A DNA stretch of 64,000 nt from the NCBI RefSeq assembly GCF_024172085.1, contig NZ_JAMZDZ010000001.1, positions 3,596,001 through 3,660,000 of the forward strand. The letters run 5' to 3'. Below, one piece after another: positions 49,397 through 64,000 of this stretch (position 1 is its first letter; every line of letters begins with the position of its first letter). The position numbers and the translations under genes were made by a program. The notes beneath the pieces were generated by a model that searched no databases, was not told where the DNA came from, and worked only from the letters and a program-made list of their open reading frames with translations. This DNA comes from Hamadaea flava (GTDB lineage: Bacteria; Actinomycetota; Actinomycetes; Mycobacteriales; Micromonosporaceae).

Positions 49397-49756
49397 ATGA
49401 CACGAACGCGGCGCGCCTTCGGGGCGTGGGGCGAGCAGGTCGCCGAGGCGTACCTGCGGCAGCTCGGGCTGGCGGTGGTCGACCGCAACTGGCGGTGCCC
49501 CGACGGCGAACTGGACCTGGTCGCGCTGGACGGCGACGTGATCGTCTTCTGCGAGGTGAAGACCCGGCGAAGTCTGCTGTTCGGCTCCGGCGTCGAGGCG
49601 GTGCTGGGCCGCAAGGCGCACCGCGTACGCAGATTGGCCGCGATCTGGCTGGCCGAGCACGACGCCGACGGCCGGGAGCTGCGGTTCGACGTGATCGCCG
49701 TCCGTCCCGGCGAAGGGCGTACGCCCCGGATCGACCACGTGACGGGTGCGTTCTAG
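49397..49756 (+). CDS. yraN: YraN/UPF0102 endonuclease-like protein
   Basis: A 119-residue protein with a restriction-endonuclease-like fold. The conserved order is GAWGEQVAEAYLRQLGLAVV, NWRCPDGELDLVALDGDVIV and FCEVKTRRS, giving the E...D...ExK nuclease-like residues of the family. It is always next to comM and dprA in actinobacteria. GGGAGG lies ten bases before the ATG at 49397. The comM GTG follows its stop directly. Confidence 0.92.
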   Translation: MTRTRRAFGAWGEQVAEAYLRQLGLAVVDRNWRCPDGELDLVALDGDVIVFCEVKTRRSLLFGSGVEAVLGRKAHRVRRLAAIWLAEHDADGRELRFDVIAVRPGEGRTPRIDHVTGAF

Positions 49757-51187
49757 GTGAGCTACGCGAAGGTGCACGCGGCCGGGATCAGCGGCGTCGC
49801 CGGCGTCCTCGTCGAGGTCGAGGCGGACGTCGCGCTGGGCATGCCCCAGCTGGTCGTCTCGGGGCTGCCGGACGCCGCGCTGAACGAGGCCCGGGACCGC
49901 GTACGCGCGGCGGTGGTCAATGCCGGGGAGGAGTGGCCGCAGCGCCGGATGACGGTCAACCTGCGCCCGGCCACCGTACGCAAGCAGGGGTCCAGCTTCG
50001 ACCTGGGCATCGCGGTGGCGATCCTCGGCGGAGCCGGGCGACTTCCGCTGGCCGCCCTGGATGGGGTGGCGCTGATCGGGGAGCTGGGTCTGGACGGCAT
50101 GGTCAGGCCGGTACGCGGAGTGCTGCCGATGGTGATGGCCGCCGCCCGCGCCGGGCTGACCCGGGCGATCGTCCCGGAGGCGAACGCCGCCGAGGCCGCC
50201 CTGGTGCCAGGCGTACGCGTCAAGGCGGCCGCCTCACTCAACGCCGTCATGAACTACGTCCGGGACGGGGTGGAGCTGCCCGCCGCCCGCCCGGTCACCA
50301 CGCTTGATCCACGACCCCGGCTCGACCTCGCGGACGTCGTGGGGCAGGAGCACGCCAAGGTCGCCTTGGAGGTCGCCGCCGCGGGCGGTCATCACCTGAG
50401 CCTGCTGGGTCCGCCCGGCGCGGGAAAGACAATGCTCGCCGCACGGCTGCCCGGACTGCTACCGACGCTGGACGACGCGGCTGCGCTGGAAGTCACCTCG
50501 CTCTACTCCATCGCCGGCCGGCTCGCCCCCGGAGCCGGGCTGCTCCGCTTTCCGCCGTTCCAGGCGCCGCACCACACGACGAGCACCGCCGCGCTGCTCG
50601 GCGGCGGGACCGGGCTGGCCCGGCCCGGGGCGATCTCGCTGGCCCATCGCGGGGTGCTGTTCCTCGACGAGCTGCCCGAGTTCAGCCGGACCTCCTTGGA
50701 GGCGATGCGCCAGCCGCTGGAGGAGGGCTCGGTTCGGATCGGCCGGTCCAAGGATCTGGTCAGCTACCCGGCCCGGGTGCAATTGGTCACTGCCGCCAAC
50801 CCCTGCCCGTGCGCGAAGCCCGGCGGCGACGCCTTCTGCGAATGCTCGCCGACCGTCCGCCGCCGGTATCTGGGCCGGTTGTCCGGACCGCTGATGGACC
50901 GGATCGACCTGCATGTCCAGCTGTTCCCGGTGACCTCGGCCGGGCTGTTCGCGGTGGACGAGCCGATCGAGACCACCGACACCGTCGCGCGGCGGGTCGT
51001 CGAGGCCCGGGCCGCCGCCGCCGAGCGCTGGCGGGCGTACGGGTGGCGGATGAACGCCGAGGCGACCCGGTCCGCCCTCCGGCTGCCGCCGGTCGCGACG
51101 GCCGACCTGCGCCACCGCATCGACACCGGGCTGTTGTCGGCCCGGGGCTACCTCCGTGTGCTGCGAGTCGCCAGAACGCAAGGCTAA
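49757..51187 (+). pseudogene. comM: ComM/YifB AAA+ protein, 5' part (3' end displaced by an integrated element)
   Basis: A 476-residue reading frame of the YifB/ComM Mg-chelatase-like ATPase, which in transformable bacteria is a branch-migration helicase. It has the N-terminal Lon-like fold, Walker A GPPGAGKTML, the HHTTS motif (APHHTTSTAALLGGG), Walker B VLFLDELPEF and the Cys cluster NPCPCAKPGG. The natural ending is missing. After RVLRVA the frame reads RTQG and stops. The true last 33 codons lie at 62062-62163, in frame. The intact gene would be about 501 residues. The truncated product may keep the AAA+ core, so it could still act in part. Confidence 0.9.
51161..51172. other. Left attachment junction candidate
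   Basis: CTGCGAGTCGCC. It matches the right junction at 62062-62073 except for one base (A against G at the sixth position). Exchange took place within CTGCG or within GTCGCC, the two identical blocks. Confidence 0.7.
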
Positions 51188-51197
51188 CATATGTGGC

Positions 51198-52661
51198 ATG
51201 AGAGACGCGCCCCTACCTGCAGTTTTGTACCTCCGAATGAGCCAGGACCGTGCCGGTGACGAGTTGGGCATCACTCGCCAGCGCGACGATGCGCGCAAGC
51301 TGGCCCAGGTACGCGGCCTGACCGTGGTCGGTGAGCACGTCGACAACGACGTGTCAGCCGCTGGCAAGGTCAAGCGGCCCGGGTTCGACGCGCTGATCAA
51401 GGATCTGGAGGCTGGGCGCGTTTCGGTCGTCATCGCCTGGGACCTGACCCGGCTTACACGCAACGCCCGCGACACCCTGCGCCTCCTGGAGGCCGGGGAG
51501 AAGGCGGGGGCCATGATCTCCTGCGTAAAGGGATCGGACCTGAACCTTGCGACGGCGGACGGGCAGATGACCGCAGGCGTTCTGGCCGCGATCGCCCAGG
51601 GGGAGATCAAGAAGAAGAGCGAAAGGCAGCGGGCTGCCAACATCCAGGCCGCCACCGATGGCAGGCGCGTGGGCGGTCGACGACCGTTCGGGTACGAACA
51701 GAACGGCGTCACCGTCCGCCGCGACGAGGCCGACGCCCTACGCCATATATATGGTGACGTCGCCCGAGGGCTCACCCTGGCCGGGGCTGCCCGCATCCTG
51801 AACGAGAGGGGGCTGCTCAGTCCCCAGCTGCGCCGCCGACCGCGTACGCCGGATGGACAGGTCGCCGAAGGCCCCCAGCAGGCCAGTCCGTGGATCGCCC
51901 AGAGCCTGCGGACAACGCTGCTCAATCCCAGGTACGCGGGCATGCGAGCGACCAAGCTGCCGGGGAAGCGTGACAAGTGGACGATCCACGGCAAGGCCGC
52001 CTGGGACGGACTGGTGCCGGAGGAGACATGGCGGGCCGTGAACGAAATCCTCCGCGACCCCGACCGGGCCACCGCCCAAGGCCATCAAGCCCTGCTGACC
52101 GGCATAGCTCGATGCGGTGCTCCCGGGTGCGGCATGACCGTACGTGCGGGCCGGAACCTCCTCGGTCAGCCGATCTACCGCTGTCCGGCCGCCAGCGCCG
52201 GGCACGTGACAAGGCGTCGTGATCCTGTGGACGACTGGATCGGCTCGCTTGTCGTCGCCCGACTGTCCCGTGAGGACGCCCGCGAGTTACTGGTCGATGA
52301 CCGGCGGCCGGACGTGGCGGCACTCCGCGAGCAGGCCCGCGCCCTTGATCTGAAGCTCAAGCGGCTGGCAGTCCAGTTCGCCGATGACCTCATCACGGCA
52401 CACCAGTTGGAGGCTGCGACGGCGCGAGCCCGCAAGCGGCGCGACGAGATCGAGGCGCAGATCGCCGACGCCGGGAAGCAGAGTCTCCTGGGACCGCTGA
52501 TCAACGCGCGTAACCCCAAGGCCGTCTATGAGGCGCTACACGACGACCAGAAGCGGGCCGTGATCGACGCACTGATGACGGTGGAGTTGCTCCCCGTTGG
52601 CCGGGGTACTCGCACGTTCCGCACCGAAACCGTCATCGCTACACCAAGGGGGCGGCTATGA
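51198..52661 (+). CDS. Large serine recombinase (integrase)
   Basis: A 487-residue site-specific recombinase. The resolvase domain begins VLYLRMSQDRAGDELGITRQ with nucleophile Ser15; IAWDLTRLTRNARDTLRLLE and GEIKKKSERQRAAN are conserved. The recombinase domain contains NPRYAGMRATKLPGKRDKW; a zinc-ribbon-like CGAPGCGMTVRAG region follows, then a coiled coil near 395-440. The ATG at 51198 lies 26 bases after the left junction, the usual integrase position. It should catalyse integration into comM. A recombination directionality factor is not recognised. Confidence 0.93.
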   Translation: MRDAPLPAVLYLRMSQDRAGDELGITRQRDDARKLAQVRGLTVVGEHVDNDVSAAGKVKRPGFDALIKDLEAGRVSVVIAWDLTRLTRNARDTLRLLEAGEKAGAMISCVKGSDLNLATADGQMTAGVLAAIAQGEIKKKSERQRAANIQAATDGRRVGGRRPFGYEQNGVTVRRDEADALRHIYGDVARGLTLAGAARILNERGLLSPQLRRRPRTPDGQVAEGPQQASPWIAQSLRTTLLNPRYAGMRATKLPGKRDKWTIHGKAAWDGLVPEETWRAVNEILRDPDRATAQGHQALLTGIARCGAPGCGMTVRAGRNLLGQPIYRCPAASAGHVTRRRDPVDDWIGSLVVARLSREDARELLVDDRRPDVAALREQARALDLKLKRLAVQFADDLITAHQLEAATARARKRRDEIEAQIADAGKQSLLGPLINARNPKAVYEALHDDQKRAVIDALMTVELLPVGRGTRTFRTETVIATPRGRL

Positions 52662-52903
52662 CCTACCGCATCCGGCTCGTGTGCACCCATGGCCGACAGC
52701 CGGTACGGGGCGAGCCTGATAAGCGGAATCTAGGTTGGGTGCGGCTGTCCGGCACTGGCTGGGTGCACGTGACGCCAGCGGTGATCTGGTGTCCGCGCTG
52801 CGGGCGTAACCCGCAGATGAGCCAGGAGCGTTGGCAGGCCGCCATGCCCCAGCTCCGCGACACGGGCGCGACTGAGATCGACATCAGCGCGCTTCCGTTC
52901 TAA
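52658..52903 (+). CDS. Small element-encoded protein with zinc-ribbon-like Cys pairs
   Basis: An 81-residue protein, coupled to the recombinase gene by ATGA. CTHG at 9-12 and CPRCGRNP near residue 45 may bind zinc; a helical C-terminus follows. Its position right after the recombinase fits an accessory factor or an excisionase (inference only). Confidence 0.65.
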   Translation: MTYRIRLVCTHGRQPVRGEPDKRNLGWVRLSGTGWVHVTPAVIWCPRCGRNPQMSQERWQAAMPQLRDTGATEIDISALPF

Positions 52904-53030
52904 GCGGCTACGCGGCTATAGTCATAAGTCGCCGGGTTCTCCCGGTCGCCCTATGTCTGAGGCTTGGTAATCGGGCAGGTAAGGCCCGCTGGTTGGGTGG
53001 GCGTACTTCAGCACGTCTGGAGACGCCCCA

Positions 53031-53273
53031 ATGTCCAGCACGGACTCCGTCAAGCCCTGGACCCACCATCGTGCGCGCATTGCCCGCAACGTCCAGGGCG
53101 GCAACCTCGAAGCCGCCGAACAGGCACGGCGCGACCTACGCGCCGCCAAGCTCGAAGAGCAGGCCCGCGCCATCGTGGCATCTTGGCCTGAACTCAGCCC
53201 CGCTACGAAGAACACGCTGCGCGCCATCTTCGCTCCGCCGTCCACGCAGGACGGGGGTGCGGCAACGCCATGA
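53031..53273 (+). CDS. Small helical protein common in actinobacterial integrative elements
   Basis: An 80-residue, mostly helical protein (HHRARIARNVQGGNLEAAEQ, ARRDLRAAKLEEQARAIVAS). Similar short proteins with an RRDLRAAKLE-type stretch are common beside integrases of actinobacterial integrative elements. GGAG is eight bases before the ATG. It overlaps the next ORF by ATGA. The function is not known. Confidence 0.65.
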   Translation: MSSTDSVKPWTHHRARIARNVQGGNLEAAEQARRDLRAAKLEEQARAIVASWPELSPATKNTLRAIFAPPSTQDGGAATP

Positions 53274-53557
53274 GCGCAAACGAAAGCCGCCCCATCACCG
53301 GGGCGACTCCCGAACTCACAGCGAGCATAACAAGACCCGCCGACGATCTGACCAGCGAAGTCCGGGCCGCTGATCGTCGACGCTGGCGCATCCGCCGTCA
53401 CGCTAGCCGCCAACTCGACGCGCTGCTCGGGCGCGAAGAACGCCATGGCGACGGCGACGGCGACGGCGACCACTATCGCGAGACGTGGCTTGACCGGGGC
53501 GTGCGCGAACGTGAGGCCCGTGGTCGCGACCTAGCGGCTTCGGGGTGGCTGCCATGA
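53270..53557 (+). CDS. Small charged element-encoded protein
   Basis: A 95-residue Arg/Asp-rich protein with an HGDGDGDGD stretch made by a GGCGAC repeat in the DNA at 53449-53470. It overlaps both neighbours by ATGA, which supports it as a real gene of the replication operon. No recognised domain. Confidence 0.55.
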   Translation: MSANESRPITGATPELTASITRPADDLTSEVRAADRRRWRIRRHASRQLDALLGREERHGDGDGDGDHYRETWLDRGVREREARGRDLAASGWLP

Positions 53558-54870
53558 CTGAGGATTGGCCCGCCGTCGCGACCCCCGGCACCGTTCCCAA
53601 GGCCCGTCACGCTGACCTAGCCGAGGGCGGGGCCGGGTCACTAGATGACGAGCTGTGGACGGCCAGACCGGCGCTGACCGTCATCCGTGACTACGCCCGA
53701 GCCCGACGCGCCGCACCGTGGGCTGTGCTGGGCGTGGCACTGGCCCGACTTGGATGCGCGGTCCCGCCATTCGTGGTACTTCCCAAGCTGGTCGGCGGCC
53801 ACGGCTCCTTGAACCTGTTCGTCGGCTTGATCGGCCCGCCCGGTGCGGGGAAGGGTGCCGCTCAGCGAGCCGGGGCGGACGTGCTCGACGTCGGCCACGT
53901 CGAGGCGGCTGGTGTCGGCTCAGGGGAGGGTCTCGCGCATCTGTACGCCCGGCGGACAAAGGAGGGCCTCGACCGGCACGCTACCGCGATGCTTCTCGAC
54001 GTCGCCGAGGTCGACACGTTGGCGGCGGTCGCCGACCGGCGCGGCGCAACCCTGTTACCTGAGCTACGACGCGCGTGGTCCGGTGAGGCGCTCGGCTTCT
54101 CGTACGCCGACCCCAACAAGCGGCTGCCAATCGCCGCGCACTCCTACAGGCTCACCATGATCGTCGGCATCCAACCGGCCCGCGCCACGGGCCTGTTCAA
54201 CGACGCGGACGGCGGCACACCGCAGCGGTTCCTATGGGTGCCAGCCACCGACCCCGACGCCCCAGAGCAGCCGCCGCCGGAGCCGAAGAGCCTGACGTGG
54301 AAGGCGCCGACGTGGCCCATGGCCGACATGGAGGGCCGCGTCGTGCTGGACGTGTGCGACGAGGCACGCCAGGCGATCGACGCCGCCCGGCTGGCCACGC
54401 TGCGCGGCAAGGGGGCGGCCTTGGACGCGCACGCCCCGCTGGCTCGGCTGAAGGTCGCCGCGGTGCTCGGCCTGCTCGACGAGCGGACCGGCGTGTCGGC
54501 CGAGGACTGGCGACTCGCCGGGATCATCGCCGCGAAGTCTGACCAGACCCGCGAGGGTGTGGTTGCCGCGATGAACCGGCAGGCCCGTGAACAGAACCGA
54601 CGGCGCGGCGAACTGGACGGCGAGCGGCAGGTCGTCGCCAACGCCCGCATCGAAGAGGACGCGATCCGACGGGTCTGCCGCTTCATCAAGCGCAAGCTCA
54701 CCGAGGCGGGCGGGGAGATGGAACACACGCCGCTGCGCAAAGCCTTGCCGAGCCGGGACCGGCACTACTTCGACCTGTCCGTCGTGCGGCTCTGCGACGC
54801 CGGGCAGGTCAAGGTCGACGACATCGACGGGTGTGCTCGCCGGTACCGGCTGACGGAGGTACGACCGTGA
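53554..54870 (+). CDS. P-loop replication-type protein (DUF3987/primase-helicase-like)
   Basis: A 438-residue protein with Walker A GPPGAGKG at 94-101 and a hydrophobic Walker B-like strand TAMLLDVAEVD. The N-terminal third (WTARPALTVIRDYARARRAAP) and the C-terminal helix-turn-helix-like end (LRKALPSRDRHYFDLSVVRL) resemble the DUF3987-type replication proteins of actinobacterial plasmids and integrative elements. The reading frame starts by ATGA overlap at 53554. Helicase activity is inferred from fold and position next to origin-like DNA; the enzyme might instead be a regulatory ATPase. Confidence 0.75.
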   Translation: MTEDWPAVATPGTVPKARHADLAEGGAGSLDDELWTARPALTVIRDYARARRAAPWAVLGVALARLGCAVPPFVVLPKLVGGHGSLNLFVGLIGPPGAGKGAAQRAGADVLDVGHVEAAGVGSGEGLAHLYARRTKEGLDRHATAMLLDVAEVDTLAAVADRRGATLLPELRRAWSGEALGFSYADPNKRLPIAAHSYRLTMIVGIQPARATGLFNDADGGTPQRFLWVPATDPDAPEQPPPEPKSLTWKAPTWPMADMEGRVVLDVCDEARQAIDAARLATLRGKGAALDAHAPLARLKVAAVLGLLDERTGVSAEDWRLAGIIAAKSDQTREGVVAAMNRQAREQNRRRGELDGERQVVANARIEEDAIRRVCRFIKRKLTEAGGEMEHTPLRKALPSRDRHYFDLSVVRLCDAGQVKVDDIDGCARRYRLTEVRP

Positions 54871-55058
54871 CGCAAGACATCGACGAGCGAAGGGTGGACA
54901 GGTGGACGCATGTCCACCCTCGCCCCGGAAAAGTCGCCCCAAGAATGCGGAGAAGACGGACATGTATGCCCTATATAGGGGCTCGTCGGTCGGTGAGGGG
55001 TGGACATGTCCACCTGTCCACCCCTCGGAGCGCATCGGACGCAAGGAGTGATCGATAA
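54867..55058 (+). CDS. Small ORF over GTGGAC boxes
   Basis: A 63-residue ORF starting by GTGA overlap with the replication-type gene and followed by another gene by TAATG overlap. Its DNA contains six GTGGAC boxes and a palindrome (54893-55026), so the coding potential may be incidental. Arg-rich, no recognised domain. Confidence 0.4.
   Translation: MTQDIDERRVDRWTHVHPRPGKVAPRMRRRRTCMPYIGARRSVRGGHVHLSTPRSASDARSDR
54893..55026. other. GTGGAC box cluster, candidate replication origin
   Basis: Boxes at 54894, 54902 and 55000 on one strand and 54912, 55008 and 55015 on the other. Two hairpins: GGTGGAC/GTCCACC at 54901-54918 and GAGGGGTGGACA (54995-55006) with TGTCCACCCCTC (55015-55026). Between them is the perfect palindrome CCCTATATAGGG at 54969-54980. 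The arrangement of iteron-like boxes around an AT-rich palindrome, next to a replication-type gene, resembles a replication origin. Unproven. Confidence 0.5.
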
Positions 55059-55258
55059 TGGTCGAGCCTGTGGATGAGCCCGTGACCGACGCCGAGCTAC
55101 GCCAGCGGCAAGCCGAGGCGTTGGAACGCGTCTGCCGCCAACGTGAACAACGCGCCGAACAACGACGCCAACTCGACGACGCTCGCGAGCACGGACTGCG
55201 CGCCCGGCACGCACAACGACTCGACCACTTGCAACGTCGGCACGGAGGTCGCCGATGA
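55058..55258 (+). CDS. Small helical Arg/Gln-rich protein
   Basis: A 66-residue protein, strongly helical (LRQRQAEALERVCRQREQRA, EQRRQLDDAREHGLRARHAQ). Its ATG overlaps the previous stop codon (TAATG) and the next ORF begins by ATGA. Possibly a DNA-binding or coiled-coil accessory protein; the function is not known. Confidence 0.45.
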   Translation: MVEPVDEPVTDAELRQRQAEALERVCRQREQRAEQRRQLDDAREHGLRARHAQRLDHLQRRHGGRR

Positions 55259-55449
55259 CAAGGGCCAGCGCCCGGCGCGTGGCACGCCGAACGGGTGCGG
55301 AATGCGCCACCACCGGGATAACCCACGTACACACCCCCACCCCACATACCCGCCCCCAGGCACCTACCCCCACGCGCCTACCCCCACCCCACAAACCGCC
55401 CCCTCGACTACCCCCACCCACCCACGCCCGCTACCACCTACACGCATAG
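55255..55449 (+). CDS. Doubtful ORF running into AC-rich DNA
   Basis: A 64-residue ORF starting by ATGA overlap. The first 25 residues look ordinary; the rest is Pro/Thr/His low-complexity because the DNA is AC-rich. It may be read by chance and could be non-coding. Confidence 0.25.
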   Translation: MTRASARRVARRTGAECATTGITHVHTPTPHTRPQAPTPTRLPPPHKPPPRLPPPTHARYHLHA

Positions 55450-55725
55450 CGCATATACCCATGCCCACCACCCGCCCCACTACCTATAAGTAAATACGTA
55501 TAGGCACATAGCTATAGCCCTACACACATACGCGCTACACACCACATACTCCTACTCACCCGTACGCACCCATAGGTACACACCTATGTGCAGCACATGG
55601 CGCATGGGCCAATGCGCATAGCATCAAGGCAAAGGCAAGACAAAGAAGATGAAGACATCAATCAATGATTGATGATGATGATCGACGAATGGTCAAGTCA
55701 AGACTCGAAGACCTTGCAAGAGCAG
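55321..55725. other. Skewed non-coding region with G-quadruplex potential and hairpins
   Basis: A stretch without a convincing gene. At 55321-55440 the plus strand is almost only A and C (ACCCCCAC-type runs), so the other strand has many GGGG/GGGGG runs. At 55483-55504 CCTATA/TATAGG, at 55571-55588 CATAGGT/ACCTATG, at 55600-55617 GCGCAT/ATGCGC, and at 55656-55674 CATCAATCA/TGATTGATG form hairpins. The last part (55626-55720) is purine-rich. This looks like an origin or transfer region of the element. Confidence 0.55.
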
Positions 55726-55726
55726 C

Positions 55727-56023
55727 ATGAGGAGCAAGAGCGCAAGCGCAACATCAACGACGCACACCAGCAGGCACACCAGCAAACCAACCGACACCGA
55801 CACCGACACCAGCAACCGGGGTACCCGAACAACTCACCCGACCACGTCGAAGCGGAGATCGGACCGCGTACTCGACCTCGTCGAGAATCAACGCGCTCGT
55901 CGCCGCACTTCGAGCGCGAACCGCGACCGAGACCCGGCGGGACCTCCGTACTTTTGGGACTCGAAGCGCCGGGAAGGCACCGCTGTCCCAGGATTATTTT
56001 CTCCCGACGATCTTTGGTTGTAG
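55727..56023 (+). CDS. Weak candidate ORF
   Basis: A 98-residue frame whose second half (RVLDLVENQRARRRTSSANR, then GPPYFWDSKRREGTAVPG) looks more protein-like than its low-complexity first half. Its codon bias is only moderate and no start signal stands out. The rest of 56024-56121 shows no gene. Confidence 0.2.
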   Translation: MRSKSASATSTTHTSRHTSKPTDTDTDTSNRGTRTTHPTTSKRRSDRVLDLVENQRARRRTSSANRDRDPAGPPYFWDSKRREGTAVPGLFSPDDLWL

Positions 56024-56121
56024 ATCTTGGCCGCAACACACAGAAAACTGGCAGTCTTCCTGGTAATTGCTCGGTTCTCGCCCGGCAAACCTGCCGAATC
56101 AGCCTCGCCAGCTCATACGTC

Positions 56122-56152
56122 GGCCCGCTGAGCGCCACTCTCCGCCAAGATC
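56122..56152. repeat. 31-base direct repeat, left copy
   Basis: GGCCCGCTGAGCGCCACTCT and onward to 56152 matches 61659-61689 with three mismatches. Both copies lie just beyond the stop codon of a small minus-strand gene of the element. Confidence 0.65.
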
Positions 56153-56175
56153 AGGCCCTTCCTGGGGTAGCTCTG

Positions 56176-56451
56176 CTACCAGATCCGGCTGTGGGGCGAG
56201 AACATCGGCTTCACGCCGCGCTTCTCGTTGCACCGCCGGTGTGCGGGCAGGCAGTTGGCCGGGTTGAGGGCCAGGCCGCCTTGGCTGATCGGCACCACGT
56301 GTTCGATCGTGAAGCTGAGCGGGTGTGGGGAGCGCAGCGCCGGGTCGATGGGTTGGCGGCAGTGCACACAGGACGCGCCCATGGCGCGCATGGTCGCGAT
56401 GAGCCGCCGGTACGGGCGGCCGTTGCGGGGGTCGCCGCGCCGGTCACTCAT
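56176..56451 (-). CDS. HNH endonuclease
   Basis: A 91-residue HNH nuclease domain. Zinc-binding Cys28 and Cys31 (CVHC) and Cys74, the catalytic Glu50-His51 (FTIEHVVP) and His71/Asn75 (CLPAHRRCNEKRG) are present, so it looks complete. Phage HNH proteins often assist terminase-linked DNA cleavage, but no terminase gene is nearby. It overlaps the upstream ORF by eight bases. Confidence 0.88.
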   Translation of the reverse strand: MSDRRGDPRNGRPYRRLIATMRAMGASCVHCRQPIDPALRSPHPLSFTIEHVVPISQGGLALNPANCLPAHRRCNEKRGVKPMFSPHSRIW

Positions 56452-56698
56452 CGTCGTGCCCGTGGTCGTTGCGGTCGGCGGCGACGTGCTCCAGCAGATG
56501 GGCCTGGAGCTGCTCGTCGGTGGCCTTGACGGTCGCGGCCAAGGCTCGCGCGTACTCCCAAGCGACGAAGTAGACGGCCTGTTTCGTCATGCCGTCCAGC
56601 ATCAGCCCGAATGCTTCACCGTCCTCGCGTCGGGCGTGGACCAGTCCGGCGATGTAGGCGGTGGTGATGTCGCGGTCGTCGGGGATGTCGTCGTCCAT
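56444..56698 (-). CDS. Small acidic protein upstream of HNH
   Basis: An 84-residue acidic protein (start MDDDIPDDRDITTAYIAGLV) with a helical middle (VYFVAWEYARALAATVKATD). It is the first gene of the short minus-strand HNH operon. No recognised domain; such proteins are found in actinophage genomes. Confidence 0.55.
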   Translation of the reverse strand: MDDDIPDDRDITTAYIAGLVHARREDGEAFGLMLDGMTKQAVYFVAWEYARALAATVKATDEQLQAHLLEHVAADRNDHGHDDE

Positions 56699-56800
56699 CG
56701 TTCCAGCGTACGGGGCATTTCGTACTGGCCGGTCTGAATATTTCCGGGTACCGTTTATGCACCAGCCGCAGAGTTCGATCCATATGAACTGGAGGCTGGT

Positions 56801-56995
56801 ATGGGAAAGTCACGCGCCGGGCGGCGTATCGAGATGGACGCCGCGCCGCAGCCGCAATCTCAGCAGGAGATCGTCGATGTCAACGCGGCGGCCGAGCGTG
56901 TGCGCCGGGAGTTCGACACCGCGATCAACGGCGTAAGCCGCAACGGGGAACGCGGGCATGTTCAGCTCCCGAGCGGCGCGGAGCCGATCCGATGA
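56801..56995 (+). CDS. Small element-encoded protein before the zinc-ribbon gene
   Basis: A 64-residue protein with a coiled-coil-like middle (DVNAAAERVRREFDTAIN). GGAGG lies six bases before the ATG at 56801, one of the clearest Shine-Dalgarno sites in the element. It overlaps the next gene by ATGA. The function is not known. Confidence 0.6.
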   Translation: MGKSRAGRRIEMDAAPQPQSQQEIVDVNAAAERVRREFDTAINGVSRNGERGHVQLPSGAEPIR

Positions 56996-57186
56996 CCGCC
57001 TGTGCGCATTGCGGCACCCCGCTGCCACCCCAGCTCGGCCCTGGGCGGCCGAAGGTCTACTGCAGCCCGGTGTGTCTGGAGCGAGCGCGTGCGCGCCGCG
57101 ATGAGGCCCTGAAGGCTGCGGGGCGGGCCGCCGTCGAGGCATACCGCGAGGCGATCACAGACCAGGGCGGAGCGGTCCCATGGTGA
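56992..57186 (+). CDS. Small zinc-ribbon protein before the prohead protease
   Basis: A 64-residue protein with a CAHC pair at residues 4-7 and a YCSPVCLERAR pair at 23-28, a DNA- or RNA-binding type zinc ribbon, followed by a helical end. It overlaps the prohead protease gene by seven bases. Confidence 0.6.
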   Translation: MTACAHCGTPLPPQLGPGRPKVYCSPVCLERARARRDEALKAAGRAAVEAYREAITDQGGAVPW

Positions 57187-58133
57187 ATGCCCTGCACGTC
57201 ACGGCACCCGTTCGCTGGGATCTGTCCAAGGCCGATGATGGGACCGGTTCGCTGACCGGCTGGGCGAGCGTCTACGGGGTCATCGACCAGCAGTCCGACG
57301 TCATCGCCGCCGGTGCCTTCGGCGAGTTCGTCAAGTCGTGGAAGGCATCGGGCAGGCCGACGATCCCGCTCGCCGTCGACCACGACCACAGCTCCGACGG
57401 CATCATCGGCTCGATTACCGACCTCACCGATTCGCCGTACGGCTTGTCATTTACGGCCGCGTTCTCGTCCGACCCCAGAGCCCAGTCGTACCGGCTCAAG
57501 GCCGCTGAGGGACATCTCACCGGGGTCTCCGTGTTCGCCGACATCCAGGCGAAGTCCATGGAGATGGTCGGCGCACGGGCGGTGCGGGTCATCACGAAGG
57601 CCGGGCCGTTGCGGGAGGTGTCGCTGACCGGTTACCCGGTCAACACGTCCGCGCGGGTCACCGTCGCCAAGGCGGCAACCATGAAGGGGACCACGATGTA
57701 CACGAACATGTCAGCGGCGGAGCTGTCGGCGGTGCTCGACCGGATGGACGCCGAACTGTTCGCCTCGATGCAGGCCAGCGCGGTGAAGTCGATGACCATC
57801 GACGAGATCTTCGCCGAGGAGCGGCGTCGCGGCTACACCGGGCCGGGGCCGGGCCGCCTTCCCGGCGGCACCTACGACCGCTCCGGGCAGCTCGTGTGCG
57901 GGGAGTGCACCCCGTGCCGGGAGGGCCGGCGAGGCGATTGCATCCACAAGGGAACTCAGGCGGCGGTGAACGCGGCGATCCGGCACCGCCGGGTGCGGGA
58001 GAACCAGCAGGCTAGTGATCTGCTCGCTGAGGTGGGCCGAGCGTCCGGCTTCGCGGCGGTCGCCGACCTAAGCGAGCACACGGTCCGGGAGGCCGCGAAG
58101 GCGAACCTCCACGCGCGGATCGACGAGATGTAG
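57180..58133 (+). CDS. HK97-type prohead protease with Cys-rich C-terminal extension
   Basis: A 317-residue protein. Residues 1-165 match the HK97 prohead protease family (S78): TGWASVYGVIDQQSDVIAAG, VDHDHSSDGIIGSI with the putative catalytic His, GHLTGVSVFADI with Ser117, and REVSLTGYPVN at 145-155. Residues 170-317 are an extension with Cys240, 243, 246 and 254 (CGECTPCREGRRGDC). In complete phages this protease matures the capsid and is followed by the major capsid gene, but none is present here, so it is an orphan. The possible target is a helper phage capsid (inference). Confidence 0.85.
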   Translation: MVNALHVTAPVRWDLSKADDGTGSLTGWASVYGVIDQQSDVIAAGAFGEFVKSWKASGRPTIPLAVDHDHSSDGIIGSITDLTDSPYGLSFTAAFSSDPRAQSYRLKAAEGHLTGVSVFADIQAKSMEMVGARAVRVITKAGPLREVSLTGYPVNTSARVTVAKAATMKGTTMYTNMSAAELSAVLDRMDAELFASMQASAVKSMTIDEIFAEERRRGYTGPGPGRLPGGTYDRSGQLVCGECTPCREGRRGDCIHKGTQAAVNAAIRHRRVRENQQASDLLAEVGRASGFAAVADLSEHTVREAAKANLHARIDEM

Positions 58134-58236
58134 GGCGGGCGTTAACGTCGCCCGGCGGCGGAGTTCTTGTCTGACTCATGGCCGCCGCCGGAACGAAGGC
58201 CGCCACCGTGGGTTCTTTCCCGACGGCCTGCGCCAA

Positions 58237-58283
58237 GCCACCGCCCCCCGGGCTCTGACAACGGCAGGCCGGGGGGCGGTGGC
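58237..58283. terminator. Strong terminator after the prohead protease
   Basis: A perfect 15-base stem (GCCACCGCCCCCCGG at 58237-58251, matching 58269-58283) with a 17-base loop, lying between the convergent prohead protease and the small membrane protein genes. No T-tract follows. Confidence 0.75.
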
Positions 58284-58295
58284 GTGTCAACGGCC

Positions 58296-58916
58296 TCAGC
58301 CCGCGCCATCGCCCCTGCGCTGGGCAGGGGTTGGAGGAGGCGCCTGCGTCCGGCTTTCGATCCGGAATGCGCCGTTGCCACCGGACTTCGTGGTGACCTC
58401 GGCGAAGGTAGTGGCGATCTCCTTCAAGGCGACGGCCACGTCGTTCAGGGTGCGGTGGCCGATCAGAACCCCCTCCAGCGCCTTGATGTCGATGCCGTAG
58501 ACGCTGGGATCTACAGGTCCACGCGGCCCGTCTGCCTCGATCGTGATCTGTATCGGCTTGGGGTTGCGATCCAGGATCTCGTTGCCTACGCCGATTCCGC
58601 GAACGAGATGGGCTCCCGGCGGGATCGCGCCGATCTCCCAGGTCTCGATGTTCTCCGGCGCGTTGTGTAGCGCGGACACGAGCGGCGGCGACAGCGTGAC
58701 CCTTACGTTCTTCGCCACGGTCGGCCCCTGGTTCCTGACCAGCAGCACGGTCAGCGCCGGTTGGTGCTCGTCAGGTCGAATGTCGACGTATACGTACGGC
58801 TGCTTCTGGTTGCGCGCGAGCTTCGCCTGAACTACGGCACTGCGGGCGATGAACCCTGAGACGATGAGAGCAGCCCAGGGGGCCAACTGCGTCATGACCT
58901 GGCCAATTGTTCCCAT
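58296..58916 (-). CDS. Membrane-anchored protein of the element, unknown function
   Basis: A protein of about 206 residues. One transmembrane helix near the N-terminus (LAPWAALIVSGFIARSAVV) is followed by a beta-rich domain with LTVLLVRNQGPTVAKNVRVT, similar to small CARDB-like extracellular folds, and by a Pro/Arg-rich tail. The ATG at 58916 is the likely start. It lies 84 bases downstream of the nuclease-like gene on the same strand, so the two may be co-expressed. I do not recognise a function. Confidence 0.6.
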   Translation of the reverse strand: MGTIGQVMTQLAPWAALIVSGFIARSAVVQAKLARNQKQPYVYVDIRPDEHQPALTVLLVRNQGPTVAKNVRVTLSPPLVSALHNAPENIETWEIGAIPPGAHLVRGIGVGNEILDRNPKPIQITIEADGPRGPVDPSVYGIDIKALEGVLIGHRTLNDVAVALKEIATTFAEVTTKSGGNGAFRIESRTQAPPPTPAQRRGDGAG

Positions 58917-59000
58917 GCGGCGTTTCCTTCCGATGCTGCGGCGAACCAAGCCCGCGCCATCTTTCGGAAGGCGCGGGCTGGGCTGCGATGGGTGATCGTC

Positions 59001-60509
59001 TTAGTCGGAGTCGGAGTCCGTGTCCGTGTCCGTGTCCGTCTTCCGGTGGAGTTCGTCGCGCGTGTCCTGGTCGGCTCGCAGCTTCGACGCGGACTCCTGC
59101 CGCCGCGCGTCGATGATCATCGGCCGCACCTCGACGTCGGGATGCTTTCGCGCCACGATTTCGGCCGCCCGCGTGATCTTCTCCGTGGTCTTCGGGTCGA
59201 GGTCCTTGTCCTCGAACGCGACGGCGACGAAGTAGGCCACCCGGATTTCCTCGGCGATGAGGTACTCCTTCGTCTGCTCGAGGATGCCGTCCCAGAAGTG
59301 CGAGTTACTCATCAGCTTCATCTCGACCAGGGCGCGAGCGCTCCACGACTTCGAGAACTTGAAGTCGACCGGGCCACGTCCGGCGTTCGCCTCACCAGTC
59401 AAGTCCACATCGTTGGCCCGACAGTAGTTGATCGCCGCGCCGTGGAACATGCGCTGCACCTTGCGCTCGGTGACCGGGCGACCGCTGCTTTCCCACAGCA
59501 TCTCCCACCCGTTCTGGTGCTCGATGTAGTGCGTGAACGCGTCCAGCACCGCCTTGACGAACTGGGGGAACTCCTCGGGGGATGCGGGCAGGAACGCGAG
59601 CGGAGAACGCGCCGCAATCTCGGCCCCCACGTCGTACCACCGCACCAGAAACTTCGGGTCACGGTCGACCGGGTACGGCTTGTGATCCGTCGCTTCCATC
59701 TTGCTCAGGTAATCCGCCACGATGTCGGGGTTCTGGCGGGCCAGACGCGCCATGGTCCACCGGTCGACGTTCTTGGCGATGTCGTAGTTGAAGTCACCCC
59801 GCAACGCCTCGCTGTGGTTGGCCCAGGCGTACCTCCAGAACGCCTCCGGCGTGACGATCGGCATCTCCTTCAAGAACTCCTTCGGCACCAGCAGCACGGG
59901 CCGGTTCTTGAAGTACGGGTTGGCGGGCAGCTCCACGTCCGCGTCAGCCCACCGGGCGTGCTCGGTGCTCCAGCGGGCGTTGCGGACTCGGAACTCCTGC
60001 ATCGGGATGTCGTGGCGACGGCAGACGTCCTGCGTGTACTCGATGAAGCGCGACTTCAGGATGTTGCAGACTGCGTCGCTGATGCGGTCGACGCCCATGC
60101 CGCCCTGGAACAAGACCAGAGTCTCAATGTGGTCCACGTTCTCGATCCCGAGACCGAGCGCCGTCTTGACGCCGCTCAGCATGCCCTGCTGCAGCCCCGA
60201 GCCGGAGCCGGAGCCGTTCGGCGACGCCTCGGCCATGCCCAGGCAGAACTCGGCCGGTTCGGGGAACATGAGAAGCCGGGATGCCTTCTTCCAGGCCAGA
60301 GACCGCTCGTCCCCCTTGGACTCGGCCACGAGTCCGAAGACGATCTCGAAGAAGCCGAGGATCTGATCGTGGGCTCCCGACCAGAACGGGCTGACGTTGT
60401 CGTAGATCAGGAAGGGGTCGACGAAGAGCTTGGAATCCACCCGAAGGTAGACGTCGAACCAGTCGTCTTCCTGACGTCGCTCGACGTCGTAGTGCTCACT
60501 GAACTTCAC
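59001..60509 (-). CDS. Large protein with PD-(D/E)XK-like nuclease core; defence candidate
   Basis: A 502-residue protein. The N-terminus contains DDWFDVYLRVDSKLFVDPFL and, near residue 137, GGMGVDRISDAV. A Gly/Ser linker (99-105) sits between these. The C-terminal domain shows a PD-(D/E)XK nuclease pattern: Glu373, GRGPVDFKF with Asp382, LVEMKLMS with Glu396 and Lys398, and EQTKEYL. The tail is a DTDTDTDSDSD repeat. GAGGAG lies eight bases before the GTG at 60509. I recognise no named family. The fold suits DNA cleavage, so restriction of foreign DNA is possible; that is inference. Confidence 0.7.
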   Translation of the reverse strand: MKFSEHYDVERRQEDDWFDVYLRVDSKLFVDPFLIYDNVSPFWSGAHDQILGFFEIVFGLVAESKGDERSLAWKKASRLLMFPEPAEFCLGMAEASPNGSGSGSGLQQGMLSGVKTALGLGIENVDHIETLVLFQGGMGVDRISDAVCNILKSRFIEYTQDVCRRHDIPMQEFRVRNARWSTEHARWADADVELPANPYFKNRPVLLVPKEFLKEMPIVTPEAFWRYAWANHSEALRGDFNYDIAKNVDRWTMARLARQNPDIVADYLSKMEATDHKPYPVDRDPKFLVRWYDVGAEIAARSPLAFLPASPEEFPQFVKAVLDAFTHYIEHQNGWEMLWESSGRPVTERKVQRMFHGAAINYCRANDVDLTGEANAGRGPVDFKFSKSWSARALVEMKLMSNSHFWDGILEQTKEYLIAEEIRVAYFVAVAFEDKDLDPKTTEKITRAAEIVARKHPDVEVRPMIIDARRQESASKLRADQDTRDELHRKTDTDTDTDSDSD

Positions 60510-60651
60510 TCGCGATGCTCCTCACCTGGGCAGAATTTGCCCACGGCAAAATGGAGTCGCATGCGCCCGACACTTTGCGAAATTTCACAAAGCCTTCCCG
60601 ATGAAGATCGGGGCGGGGTAGGGTCTCGGCTGCGGTGTCCAATCGCTTTAG

Positions 60652-60697
60652 AGACCCGGCTCGGGTGCCGACCTCGGCATCTGGCCGGGTCTTTCTT
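60652..60697 (+). terminator. Plus-strand terminator-like hairpin, possible end of a short RNA
   Basis: AGACCCGGC (60652-60660) and GCCGGGTCT (60684-60692) pair perfectly, with a second small hairpin (TGCCGA/GGCA) in the loop, followed by TTTCTT. It is oriented to end plus-strand transcription, but no plus-strand gene lies upstream; the minus-strand nuclease-like gene starts at 60509. A short RNA from 60510-60690 is one explanation. Confidence 0.55.
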
Positions 60698-61068
60698 GCG
60701 TCTCCGTGACTCCCTGTAACTTTAGCGGCCGGGGCGGACAAGAAGCGGTCACTCGTTGTAGGGGCCACTGAGGACAAATCTGCCCATCTGCAATTTTGCG
60801 CGCGGAAGCGAGTCGATTCACGCAGGATCTGTCACCGCATGACATCGACGATGCTGGGTTTATCCGATGTGTAGGGATAGATCAGCATTCACGTTTGTGG
60901 CGCGCATCACCCGATCTCGGGAAAAAACAAATCTGCAGCCGTCCGCTTCGGCGTGTCGCGCCGCCGAACGTTTCGCCTGGCCCATCCCCCACCAACGTCA
61001 GTCGGAAACACACCGCAGACCCGCGACGGTCCAGGGCCAGATCAGCTCCCCGTGCTTCACTGGCGCTC
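60698..61068. other. Non-coding stretch before the membrane protein gene
   Basis: No convincing gene is seen here. Reading frames across it lack start signals and have no recognised motif. Possible promoter sequences for the gene at 61069 are not evident. Confidence 0.4.
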
Positions 61069-61659
61069 GTGAGGCTCCACACGCGTCTTGATCATCCGTT
61101 TCCGCTGCCCGTTGACCCTGTTCGGGACGGCTGGGATTGGCTCAGCCTGTGGGTGGGCCTCGGTTCGGCGGTCATCGGCCTATTCGTGGGCATCACCGCC
61201 ATCGTCCTCGCCCGGAAGGCGAACAGGCACGCGAAGGAGGCGATGGAGATGGCCGCTGAGGCGGAGCGGCGGGCGATCGAACGGGCGACCGACGAGCGAC
61301 GGCGGCTCTTTGAGCTGGAGATCCTTCGCGACATGTTGGAGCAGTGCAATCCGCATGACAACAAGATGAGGAGTCTCGCCAGGGAGTTCGGTCGCGAGTG
61401 GATGGACGTTGAATTCGGGGCGCAGCTCATGATGCTGCCCGACGACGAGCTGCCATTTTGGCGGGCATATCCGACGTTCAGCAGGGAGGCCCGATACCGG
61501 ATGATGCCTCACGAAAGTGCCGAGCAGGCAATCGAACAGGCTCGATACGCCGGAACCGGGGGACAGCTCCTTTGGCAGGCTGACGCAGAATTCACCGAGG
61601 TCATGACTCGTGAGTTCCGGCAGGATCTCAAGGCGGCGATTACGCGGAGGATGCGGTAG
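61069..61659 (+). CDS. Membrane-anchored coiled-coil protein of the element
   Basis: A protein of about 196 residues. One transmembrane helix (GLGSAVIGLFVGITAIVLA) lies at about residues 30-50. It is followed by a basic/acidic coiled coil (KEAMEMAAEAERRAIERATD) and a globular part (REFGREWMDVEFGAQLMMLP). The start is uncertain: GTG at 61069 is the best candidate, but no Shine-Dalgarno sequence is seen. It faces the nuclease-like gene across 559 bases. The function is not known. Confidence 0.55.
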   Translation: MRLHTRLDHPFPLPVDPVRDGWDWLSLWVGLGSAVIGLFVGITAIVLARKANRHAKEAMEMAAEAERRAIERATDERRRLFELEILRDMLEQCNPHDNKMRSLAREFGREWMDVEFGAQLMMLPDDELPFWRAYPTFSREARYRMMPHESAEQAIEQARYAGTGGQLLWQADAEFTEVMTREFRQDLKAAITRRMR

Positions 61660-61689
61660 GCCCGCTCAGCGCCAATCTCCGCCACGATC
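61659..61689. repeat. 31-base direct repeat, right copy
   Basis: Matches 56122-56152 with three mismatches. It begins at the stop codon of the coiled-coil gene and lies beyond the stop of the small minus-strand gene at 61766, as the left copy lies beyond the HNH stop. Confidence 0.65.
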
Positions 61690-61765
61690 GCGTCATGCCC
61701 CGGACCCGGTATAGGCCGACGCGCCCCGGACCCGTGGGATGACCGGAGCGCGTCGCTATCCGTCC

Positions 61766-61972
61766 TTACTCCGCGAGCCGTCGGCCGATGATGTCCGCCA
61801 GCACGAACAGCGCGAGCCGCAGACGGCGTAGGTCGCCCGCATCGAGGTAACCGAGATCCTTTACCTCGAAGAGTTCCGTCGCGACGTCACGCAGGTCCAA
61901 GGCGATGGTTCCGGCCACGATGCGCTCGGCCTCGTCGAACTGGTCGACGTCCACCGTGATGCTGTGTTCCAT
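61766..61972 (-). CDS. Small acidic protein at the right end of the element
   Basis: A 68-residue, acidic helical protein (EAERIVAGTIALDLRDVATE). GGGGG lies close to eight bases before the ATG at 61972. It is the last gene before the right junction. No recognised domain. Confidence 0.55.
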   Translation of the reverse strand: MEHSITVDVDQFDEAERIVAGTIALDLRDVATELFEVKDLGYLDAGDLRRLRLALFVLADIIGRRLAE

Positions 61973-62061
61973 GATCGCTACCCCCCGATGCGATCTTCGT
62001 TCGGCCTGATGGCCGCTCCTATGTGAGGCGCTTCACACCTCAGCTCGGTCGGCAACCGGTT

Positions 62062-62073
62062 CTGCGGGTCGCC
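62062..62073. other. Right attachment junction candidate
   Basis: CTGCGGGTCGCC, one base different from the left junction at 51161-51172. The comM reading frame continues to the right of it as WTLSDLAGRDRP. Confidence 0.7.
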
Positions 62074-62163
62074 TGGACCCTCAGCGATCTGGCCGGTCGC
62101 GACCGGCCGGGTCGTGAGGACGTCGCGACCGCGCTGACCTTGCGATTGGGAGACCTGAGATGA
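62062..62163 (+). pseudogene. comM: ComM C-terminal remnant
   Basis: Thirty-three codons in the original frame, LRVAWTLSDLAGRDRPGRED and onward to LRLGDLR, then TGA overlapping the dprA ATG (ATGA). This is the conserved end of YifB/ComM proteins, which join a C-terminal helical region to the AAA+ core. It has no start codon of its own. Confidence 0.9.
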
Positions 62164-63338
62164 GCACCGAAGACCGCGTACGCCTGGCTCGCATCGCCCT
62201 CGGCTGTCTGGTCGAGCCCGGTCGGAAGGACGTGTTCGAGCTGGTCGCGATGGACGGGCCGGAGGCGGCGCTCAACCGCCTCTGCGCGGGCGACGCGGCC
62301 GCGTCCGAGGCGGTCCAGAGCCGCCTGGCCGGAGAGGATCCCTGGAATCTCGCCCGGCGACAGCTGGCCATCACCGAACGCGTCGGCGCTCGCGTCCTGA
62401 CTCCGGAGGACGACGAGTGGCCCGGAGTCCGGCTCGACGACCTGGCCCGCATCTCCCGCCCGACGCTGTCCGGCGGGACGGCGATCGATCGCGACACCTT
62501 CCCGCCCCACTGCCTCTGGGTACGCGGAGCGCTGCCCCTCGGCACGACGGTGGCCCGGTCGGTCGCCGTCGTCGGAGCCCGTGCCAGTACGCCGTACGGC
62601 GATCACGTCGCCGCCGAGCTGAGCTACGGCCTCGCCCGCAAGGGGTACGCCGTGGTGTCCGGCGGCGCCTTCGGCATCGACGCCGCCGCGCATCGGGGCG
62701 CCCTGGCCGCGGGCGGCCCGACGATCGCCGTCTTGGCCTGCGGCGTCGACCGGGCGTACCCGTTGGGACATGCCGGGCTGCTGGAGCAGATCGCGGAAAC
62801 CGGGCTGGTCCTCAGCGAGTGGCCGGCGGGCAGCGAGCCGCTGCGTTTCCGGTTCCTCATCCGCAACCGCGTGATCGCCGCGCTCACCCAAGGCACGGTG
62901 ATGGTCGAGGCCGCGGCTCGCAGCGGCAGCCGCCAGACCCTGCACCGGGCGTTGCAGCTCGGCCGGGCCGCGATGGCGGTGCCCGGCCAGGTGACCTCGG
63001 CGACCTCCGTCGGCTGCCATGAGGAGCTGCGGAAACCCGAGGTGCTGCCGGTGGCGAACATCGCTCACGTGCTGGAGGAGGTGGGCCGGATCGGGGCCGA
63101 CCTCGCCCCGCCGGTGCTCGGGCCGGAACGCCCGGAGGACCAGCTGGACGAGGTGGAACAGCGGTTGATGGACGCGGTGCCGGCACACCGGCCGATGCTG
63201 TGCGGCGACATCGCGCGGATCGCGGGCATCCCGGTACGGGTCGCGCTGGCGAAGCTGCCCGCGCTGGTCACGAGGGGCCTGCTCGAAGAACGAGGCGGCG
63301 CGTATCGCCTGCCCGCCGCACGGGCGGGCCGGCGATGA
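62160..63338 (+). CDS. dprA: DNA-processing protein DprA
   Basis: A 392-residue protein of the Rossmann-fold DprA/Smf family, which loads RecA onto single-stranded DNA during transformation. Conserved parts are VAVVGARASTPYG, VSGGAFGIDAAAHRGAL, VLACGVDRAYP and RFRFLIRNRVIAAL. A C-terminal winged-helix-like end (LCGDIARIAGIPVRVALAKL) is also present. It normally follows comM by ATGA overlap; here the element lies between dprA and the comM promoter side, so transcription may need another promoter. Confidence 0.94.
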   Translation: MSTEDRVRLARIALGCLVEPGRKDVFELVAMDGPEAALNRLCAGDAAASEAVQSRLAGEDPWNLARRQLAITERVGARVLTPEDDEWPGVRLDDLARISRPTLSGGTAIDRDTFPPHCLWVRGALPLGTTVARSVAVVGARASTPYGDHVAAELSYGLARKGYAVVSGGAFGIDAAAHRGALAAGGPTIAVLACGVDRAYPLGHAGLLEQIAETGLVLSEWPAGSEPLRFRFLIRNRVIAALTQGTVMVEAAARSGSRQTLHRALQLGRAAMAVPGQVTSATSVGCHEELRKPEVLPVANIAHVLEEVGRIGADLAPPVLGPERPEDQLDEVEQRLMDAVPAHRPMLCGDIARIAGIPVRVALAKLPALVTRGLLEERGGAYRLPAARAGRR

Positions 63339-63341
63339 CGA

Positions 63342-63653
63342 TCAGATGTCGCTGGGCAGCGAGAGGTCGGGCTTCTCCAGCTCTTCGACGTTGACGTCCT
63401 TGAACGTCATGACCCGGACGTTCTTCACGAACCGGGCCGGACGGTACATGTCCCACACCCAGGCGTCGTGCATCTCGACCTCGAAGAAGACCTCGCCGTC
63501 GGAGTTGCGCACGTGCAGGTCGACCTGATTGGCGAGGTAGAACCGCCGCTCCGTCTCCACGACGTAGGAGAACTGACGGACGATGTCGCGGTACTCCTTG
63601 TAGAGCTGAAGCTCCATCTCGGTCTCGTACTTCTCGAGATCCTCAGCGCTCAT
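63342..63653 (-). CDS. DUF2469 family protein
   Basis: A 103-residue actinobacterial protein with the family core YKEYRDIVRQFSYVVETERR, FYLANQVDLHVR and VEMHDAWVWDMYRP. It sits next to rnhB in actinobacteria and overlaps it by ATGA. The function is not known. Confidence 0.92.
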   Translation of the reverse strand: MSAEDLEKYETEMELQLYKEYRDIVRQFSYVVETERRFYLANQVDLHVRNSDGEVFFEVEMHDAWVWDMYRPARFVKNVRVMTFKDVNVEELEKPDLSLPSDI

Positions 63654-64000
63654 CGCACGCCCTCCATGCTGACATCTTCCCCCACCCGGCGCCGGCGGCG
63701 AGCCGGGTCACCGGACGCCACGCCGACCGTACCCCGACCGTGCTCCTCGCGCCCATCGAGCGCTCGTTCCGACTCGGCCACGTTCTGATAAGAGAACCGA
63801 TGCTCAGTGCAGGGCCCGTGCGCACGCAGCGCGGCCGAGTGCTCTGGGGTGGTATATCCCTTATGTAGCTCGAAGCCGTATTCAGGATACTTTTCCGCCA
63901 ACTGCACCATGATCCGGTCCCGGGTGACCTTGGCCAGGACGCTCGCCGCCGCAACGCACGCCGCCACCTGGTCGCCCTTCCAGACCGCCAGGCCGGGCAC
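63650..64000 (-). CDS. rnhB: Ribonuclease HII (partial, N-terminus outside window)
   Basis: The last 116 codons of RNase HII, which removes ribonucleotides from RNA-DNA hybrids. The visible part includes AACVAAASVLAKVTRDRIM and YGFELHKGYTTPEHSAALRA, followed by the HRFSYQNV ending and a C-terminal tail. The gene starts to the right of the window. Confidence 0.92.
   Translation of the reverse strand: MPGLAVWKGDQVAACVAAASVLAKVTRDRIMVQLAEKYPEYGFELHKGYTTPEHSAALRAHGPCTEHRFSYQNVAESERALDGREEHGRGTVGVASGDPARRRRRVGEDVSMEGVR

Follow-up and report, generated by a model that had tools for sequence, protein, structure and literature searches.

In the actinomycete Hamadaea flava, the competence and DNA-recombination gene comM is split by an insert of 10,901 bp that is very probably a phage-derived island, integrated by its own large serine recombinase (LSR), impairing ComM and following the lifestyle of a satellite or reduced prophage. 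The gene lies within 64,000 nucleotides of contig NZ_JAMZDZ010000001.1 (assembly GCF_024172085.1, positions 3,596,001 to 3,660,000), a stretch here called the window; all coordinates are window positions. The mobile island would have entered when its attP recombined site-specifically with an attB around comM codon 471, its own LSR making the exchange at a GT dinucleotide, and integration would have swapped the last 29 residues of ComM for a short foreign tail. Besides the integrase, the island has putative genes for a replication protein of phage type, a nuclease of the HNH family and a prohead protease, together with a candidate for a defence function. This case is not the first of its sort and belongs to an already known pattern of LSR elements in comM. 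The interrupted gene, the two ends of the insert and the integrase are arranged as follows.

49757..51166, + strand: 5' part of comM, 470 codons before the crossover (Pfam Mg_chelatase 8.7e-83, ChlI 4.4e-38)
51167..51168, + strand: attL crossover dinucleotide GT, the sole dinucleotide in both junctions of all nine end pairs compared below and the centre of the attP dyad
51169..51187, + strand: tail and stop codon of the truncated comM frame, contributed by the element, from the sequence and its translation
51198..52661, + strand: LSR (integrase), 487 aa (Pfam Resolvase 2.4e-26, Recombinase 7e-12; PHROG integrase 5.2e-87)
62068..62069, + strand: attR crossover dinucleotide GT, from the same end-pair and attP-dyad analysis
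62074..62163, + strand: separated 3' end of comM (29 codons plus stop), which keeps the comM frame and is homologous to intact relatives
62160..63338, + strand: dprA, overlapping the comM stop (Pfam DNA_processg_A 1.9e-58)

A first-pass annotation, made from the letters of the window without database searches, had proposed that a 10.9 kb element splits comM and that the end of the gene remains in frame on the far side. Comparison of the comM-dprA region with close relatives bears this out. An uninterrupted comM of 501 codons is found in 3 of 3 other genomes of the genus that were examined (G001, G002 and G003), which is the length predicted for the rejoined frame (472 + 29 = 501). The empty site of G002 reads GTGCTGCGAGTCGCCTGGACCCT, with 23 bases identical to the left flank of the window joined to its right flank, and the 5' part of comM is 93% identical to the comM of this relative. 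Beyond the insert, 62074-62163 translates in the comM frame as WTLSDLAGRDRPGREDVATALTLRLGDLR followed by a stop, and this stop overlaps the start of dprA as ATGA, in keeping with the ending foreseen for the restored gene. The cut falls at about residue 471. The truncated frame (49757-51187) encodes 476 residues, the final four of which, RTQG, are encoded by the element; its stop (51185-51187) lies ten bases before the ATG of the integrase gene (51198), as the annotation had stated. Its join of 51172 to 62074 identified the junction region and lies within sequence common to both ends (51169-51172 is the same in both junctions), but the crossover itself is placed a few bases to the left, at the GT of 51167-51168, and the length of the element is measured from this GT to that at 62068.

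The crossover was located with nine pairs of element ends at this codon, namely those of the window, L078, L079, L085, L086, L110, L080, L083 and L090 together with its partner contig. The only dinucleotide that attL and attR share in 9 of 9 pairs consists of positions 1 and 2 of the codon preceding Ala: it is GT in the window, L110 and L090, CT in L079, L085 and L080, AT in L078, TT in L086 and TG in L083. When the attP arms of the nine pairs are folded about this core they are 48% identical over 30 bases, compared with 19-29% at fold shifts of 1-6 bases and 25% in random segments of the same loci (standard deviation 2.6, maximum 37% in 2000 draws). A motif resembling GCAGATGTG occurs on both attP arms 18 bases from the core, and the copies in the window are weak (ACATATGTG and ACCGAGCTG). 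An uncut dyad of the same layout is present in L116, a 53-kb IMG/VR viral contig with a close LSR, where arm identity is 50% at an axis picked by eye and no more than 40% away from it. The crossover of 2 bp within a dyad attP that adjoins the integrase gene and the domain order of the protein, Resolvase (PF00239) followed by Recombinase (PF07508), are those of a large serine recombinase. A palindromic core, the GC of the Ala codon common to three pairs, one of them from a reversed element, was rejected because only the bases of the preceding codon are common to all nine pairs and the attP dyad agrees with them; L080, L086 and L110 lack that GC.

What ComM loses is part of its C-terminal domain. 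Pfam Mg_chelatase_C aligns at 2-72 of 94 positions in the window protein, compared with 2-94 in two intact relatives, and the lost 29-codon segment belongs to this domain. Residues R470, A472, W473 and T474, which lie about the cut, do not vary among 11 aligned proteins of the ComM family, a family for which structures have been deposited in the PDB (8rxd and others). Because the last 29 residues are replaced by a short foreign tail, ComM without the end of this domain is probably inactive or impaired. The genome consists of one 8.86 Mb contig, in which two additional ChlI-domain matches (31.8 and 31.2 bits, cut-off 27, against 134 for comM) are taken for genes other than comM, presumably of the Lon and RadA types. 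The ratio of nonsynonymous to synonymous substitution (dN/dS) in the 5' part of comM is 0.080 to G002 and 0.101 to G001, near the value of 0.084 between these two intact relatives, and there is thus no sign of long decay. The 29-codon tail likewise exhibits no excess, with 0.173 and 0.161 compared with 0.198 between the intact pair. These ratios would fit either an insertion that is recent relative to the splits from G001 and G002 or a truncated comM that is still used; we favour recency.

The remaining features of the insert are given below.

53545..54870, + strand: DUF3987 / phage primase-polymerase-like protein (Pfam DUF3987 2.2e-8; PHROG DNA polymerase/primase 1.2e-67)
54888..55420, no strand: 20-nt inverted repeat arms and C-rich direct repeats, no convincing gene (repeat search)
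56176..56451, - strand: HNH endonuclease, 91 aa (Pfam HNH 8.1e-8; PHROG 2.4e-21)
56444..56698, - strand: 84-aa protein of no family (gene call; no Pfam or PHROG match)
57180..58133, + strand: prohead maturation protease (S78), 317 aa (Pfam Peptidase_S78 1.1e-11; PHROG head maturation protease 1.2e-19)
58296..58916, - strand: 206-aa protein without Pfam match (gene call)
59001..60509, - strand: 502-aa protein, candidate for anti-phage defence (PADLOC candidate PDC-M36A 2.1e-29, residues 3-276; PHROG 30194 3e-65)
61153..61659, + strand: 168-aa protein with weak family matches only (gene call)
61766..61972, - strand: 68-aa protein of no Pfam family (gene call)

The insert is most likely a phage satellite or a reduced prophage. 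It combines an integrase with a replication protein of its own, the DUF3987/primase-like protein, and among head and packaging genes it has the prohead protease, the N-terminal part of which also matches a PHROG named major head protein (2.1e-8). No capsid, portal, terminase or tail proteins were recognised in the insert by profile search (Pfam, with PHROGs for ten window proteins). Such a gene set, with few head or packaging genes and most structural genes missing, is that of satellites resembling phage-inducible chromosomal islands (PICI) and capsid-forming PICI (cf-PICI). Small mycobacterial prophages like phiRv1 and satellites of the PICI type are about 10 kb long and carry an integrase, a replication protein and few head genes, traits in which the window element resembles them. 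The 502-aa protein may be a cargo defence gene. The repeat region at 54888-55420, with low GC and strong skew (a GC dip and skew are seen at 55001-56000), is a possible replication origin or regulatory region of the element. No Rfam match was obtained in 49500-64000 and no tRNA in the 64-kb window; promoter-like sites are at chance level, and terminator-like sites number 9 compared with 5.1 (standard deviation 2.3) in shuffles.

Related elements present a similar picture. A profile search of 52 chosen proteins from nine other elements at codon ~474 found Phage_capsid in five, portal in one, large terminase in one and tape measure in two. These elements have few proteins in common besides the LSR, suggesting that the integrase travels with different phage-derived bodies. 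Alternatively, the insert might be what remains of a full-size prophage that carried this integrase and is decaying, and not a self-maintained satellite, a serious possibility that we nevertheless rate as somewhat unlikely. The 53-kb contig L116 has one of the nearest LSRs, other elements at the same codon hold the portal, terminase or tape-measure genes just mentioned, and no clear gene is seen over long stretches of the window insert. Locus flanks reached at most 10 kb, so that longer elements cannot show both ends, and six loci at this codon that have about 10 kb of flank show one end only and probably contain such elements. However, the integrase, primase-like, HNH and protease frames of the window are open, comM carries no old decay, and elements whose two ends fall on a single locus, eight in number, measure about 8 to 11 kb, a sample in which the 10-kb flank favours short ones.

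The distribution of related integrases reveals comM as their principal location. A genome scan with the single window LSR as query gave no matches; a scan of species genomes with an alignment of three LSRs (A3) gave 38 named loci, all from Actinomycetota save one metagenome-assembled genome of Clostridia. This exception is among five loci without comM nearby, some of them on short contigs. The other 33 of 38 lie within comM: 17 at codon ~474, 15 at codon ~84 (two of which, L099 and L100, are near copies) and one at codon ~296. The closest relatives of the window LSR (51-55%) are inserted at the same comM codon as in the window.

Within the family, 354 genomes of Micromonosporaceae were searched for comM and 50 odd ones were re-searched. 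In twelve of the 354, comM is in pieces separated by over 1 kb on one contig, and an LSR lies at a junction in every case (G000, G047, G088, G178, G196, G223, G248, G269, G287, G297, G326 and G342; the LSR match in G088 is weak, at 101 bits). In four more a comM fragment lies beside an LSR, the rest being on another contig or not found in G149, G172 and G200 and the junctions being on two contigs in G053. Overall, comM is cut by an LSR in 16 of 354 genomes, with 17 insertions: six at codon ~84, two at 223, one at 270, five at 304 and three at 474. Broken comM genes on separate contigs where no LSR was seen, and adjacent pieces resembling frameshifts, are outside these counts. Two genes have been hit twice. 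In Micromonospora arborensis (G196; L063 and L078) comM is interrupted at codons ~306 and ~473 by distinct LSR elements that run in opposite directions, and in Sinomonas sp. ASV486 (L089) it is cut at codons ~84 and ~476 by LSRs of different clades. The five insertion points fall in conserved stretches of comM weakly more often than by chance (0.044 of random draws were as low, with rounded positions, five sites and 28 ComM proteins).

Some observations lie beside this pattern. G342, in which comM itself is cut at codon 84, has a stray comM fragment (residues ~293-473; L067:7154-7705) upstream of yraN. A further LSR of the clan in G196 (L026) adjoins the gene for ComEC, another competence gene (Pfam Competence 6.5e-50), and related LSRs in G247 and G105 (L022 and L023) adjoin radical SAM genes, which are thus a further neighbour seen more than once.

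The neighbouring gene dprA served as the control. By the same measure of pieces more than 1 kb apart on one contig, dprA is split in 3 of 354 genomes (G188, G217 and G275), against 12 for comM. Of the three gaps, that of G275 yielded an LSR, and none of this clan was seen in those of G188 and G217. The G275 gap (contig C13, L123) opens at dprA codon ~200, is 9.0 kb long and has the LSR at its junction. Breaks near codon 230 occur in G188 (L122), G217 (L124), G200 (L074) and G267 (L125), and at contig ends in G005 (L126) and G075 (L127), as if this codon were another preferred insertion point. Since dprA is itself involved in transformation and is broken recurrently, it does not count as neutral. 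In 9 of 354 genomes comM gave no match at E 0.01 (up to 30 candidates scored). Eight of the nine also lack a full dprA, and the ninth, G304, has a dprA piece at a contig end; with both comM and full dprA missing, the region appears sometimes to be lost altogether. The eight belong to one genus, g4 (G194, G140, G224, G263, G267, G290, G325 and G328); yraN, searched in seven of them (not G328), is present in G267 and G325 and was not found in the other five. In G200, comM 1-83, an LSR and the last part of dprA are retained, a layout that suggests a subsequent deletion.

The recurrence of comM as a target raises the question of whether elements have been selected to break it, in an intragenomic conflict in which ComM would help transformation to remove mobile elements. 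This idea is tentative and, in our judgement, rather doubtful. It would account for comM being split in 12 genomes, all with an LSR at the junction, against three for dprA with one LSR found, for the entry of distant LSR lineages at five comM codons and for the LSR beside comEC. The idea presupposes natural transformation, however, which is not known to occur in these hosts. A gene that is conserved, single-copy and lacking in some genomes, as comM is, would suit integrases by that alone; the preference for conserved stretches is weak, and the one control gene is not neutral. An argument for conflict of this kind is in print, in the accessible text of PMC4774983.

It is improbable that the insertion acts as a reversible switch from which excision restores comM when needed. 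Such a switch has been described for the comK prophages of Listeria, and the comM 3' end of the window, still in frame and without excess of change, would be compatible with one, but elsewhere comM has decayed or been partly lost beside an LSR (G200, G149 and G287). A transposon island of the AbaR (Tn7-like) kind, which has only the target gene in its favour, is refuted by gene content: no transposase, Tn7-like or other, was found among the element proteins scanned (Pfam and PHROGs), an LSR lies at the edge and the junctions have a common att core.

Several points weigh against the readings given here. The zinc-ribbon match of the LSR (PF13408) scores 19.2 bits, under the cut-off of 25.3, and the first assignment of the core, as GC, proved wrong. 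The contrast between comM and dprA amounts to 12 against 3, and dprA seems to be a target itself. Satellite status is unproven: it depends on genes that profile searches did not recognise and on simple gene calls, and the evidence from element size, biased by flank length, is not used as proof.

The insertion site follows the LSR lineage, unlike the orientation. A quick tree built from 65 LSRs requires 14 site changes, compared with a shuffled mean of 35.3 (0 of 200 as low). Relatives of the window integrase use more than one point of comM, and one and the same point is entered in both directions; of 18 elements at codon ~474, 12 are integrated in one direction and six in the other (L088, L101 and L113 are represented by the integrase end only). 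Orientation requires four changes at codon 474 and three at codon 84 on the quick tree, and five on a careful tree of the 18 codon-474 LSRs, where four changes are forced by well supported branches. A single origin of the six reversed LSRs, held together on the 18-LSR tree, is rejected by the approximately unbiased test (p-AU 0.0003). Adding seven LSRs of other or unknown target gives 7.8e-37, and the 18-LSR result is the one relied on. In the comM cases the 5' end of the integrase gene lies within ~200 bp of the comM- or the dprA-side junction and points inward; what differs is thus the direction of integration and not the place of the gene in the element. Transcription of comM reading through into the integrase gene, as the first-pass annotation had suggested, is possible in the window but is not a conserved arrangement, the integrase being at the other end and on the other strand in six of the 18 elements.

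The central dinucleotide determines the polarity of LSR integration (Ghosh 2003 and Smith 2004, cited in the accessible part of PMC3783163), and by geometry the reversed elements would have to carry the complementary attP dinucleotide. On balance, the sequences suggest that integration polarity has been reversed repeatedly in nature through the attP central dinucleotide alone, with equivalent arms and a fixed point in comM. Read with the integrase to the right, GT, CT, AT or TT on the one hand and AC, AG or CA on the other would constitute two polarity classes. The core of the L116 dyad is AG with the integrase to the right, which predicts reversed-direction integration at a Leu CTN codon. The palindromic AT core of Micromonospora arborensis would be a step permitting both directions. 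If true, this reversal would be the natural counterpart of the polarity switches engineered in Bxb1 and phiC31; literature searches of open-access text did not find the polarity observation.

The accessible text of Durrant et al. 2022 (PMC10083194) reports that 12.4% of the site-specific LSRs predicted there target homologues of Mg chelatase/ATP-dependent protease, and finds an enrichment of competence genes. As described there, those elements resemble that of the window in their serine integrase, comM-family target, short core and disruption of the gene; that text gives the enrichment, to which the sites within comM, the orientation and the host family are added here. The suggestion that the window element chose comM independently of AbaR islands is thereby only partly upheld, in that the enzyme is unrelated to the AbaR transposon and the element is site-specific, but comM is a leading LSR target in print and this is not an isolated second use of the gene. 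In the portions available, Croucher et al. 2016 (PMC4774983) document mobile genetic elements located in the comM genes of Aggregatibacter, Acinetobacter, Pseudomonas and others, and interpret them in terms of a conflict over transformation. Their elements likewise interrupt comM, but differ in having Gram-negative hosts and, by description, a different integrase (CF65_00446-like). Frequent inactivation of comM in Acinetobacter is noted in the accessible text of a 2024 paper (PMC11472951). Prophage WO sr1WO, according to the available text of PMC9203015, is inserted in the Mg chelatase gene of Wolbachia; it too is a serine recombinase prophage splitting the same gene family, but in another host phylum and with an element of phage size. 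Literature searches found nothing on satellites with serine integrases in Actinobacteria and nothing on point for comM in Micromonospora.

The window thus places an actinomycete genome in the known pattern of serine-integrase elements that break comM. The elements collected here form a dense natural set of attB and attP sites at one gene, with five insertion codons, two genes hit twice and both orientations at one codon. This set may help to show what LSRs recognise in DNA and how their polarity evolves, and it can test whether comM is targeted for limiting mobile elements or merely for being conserved and dispensable.

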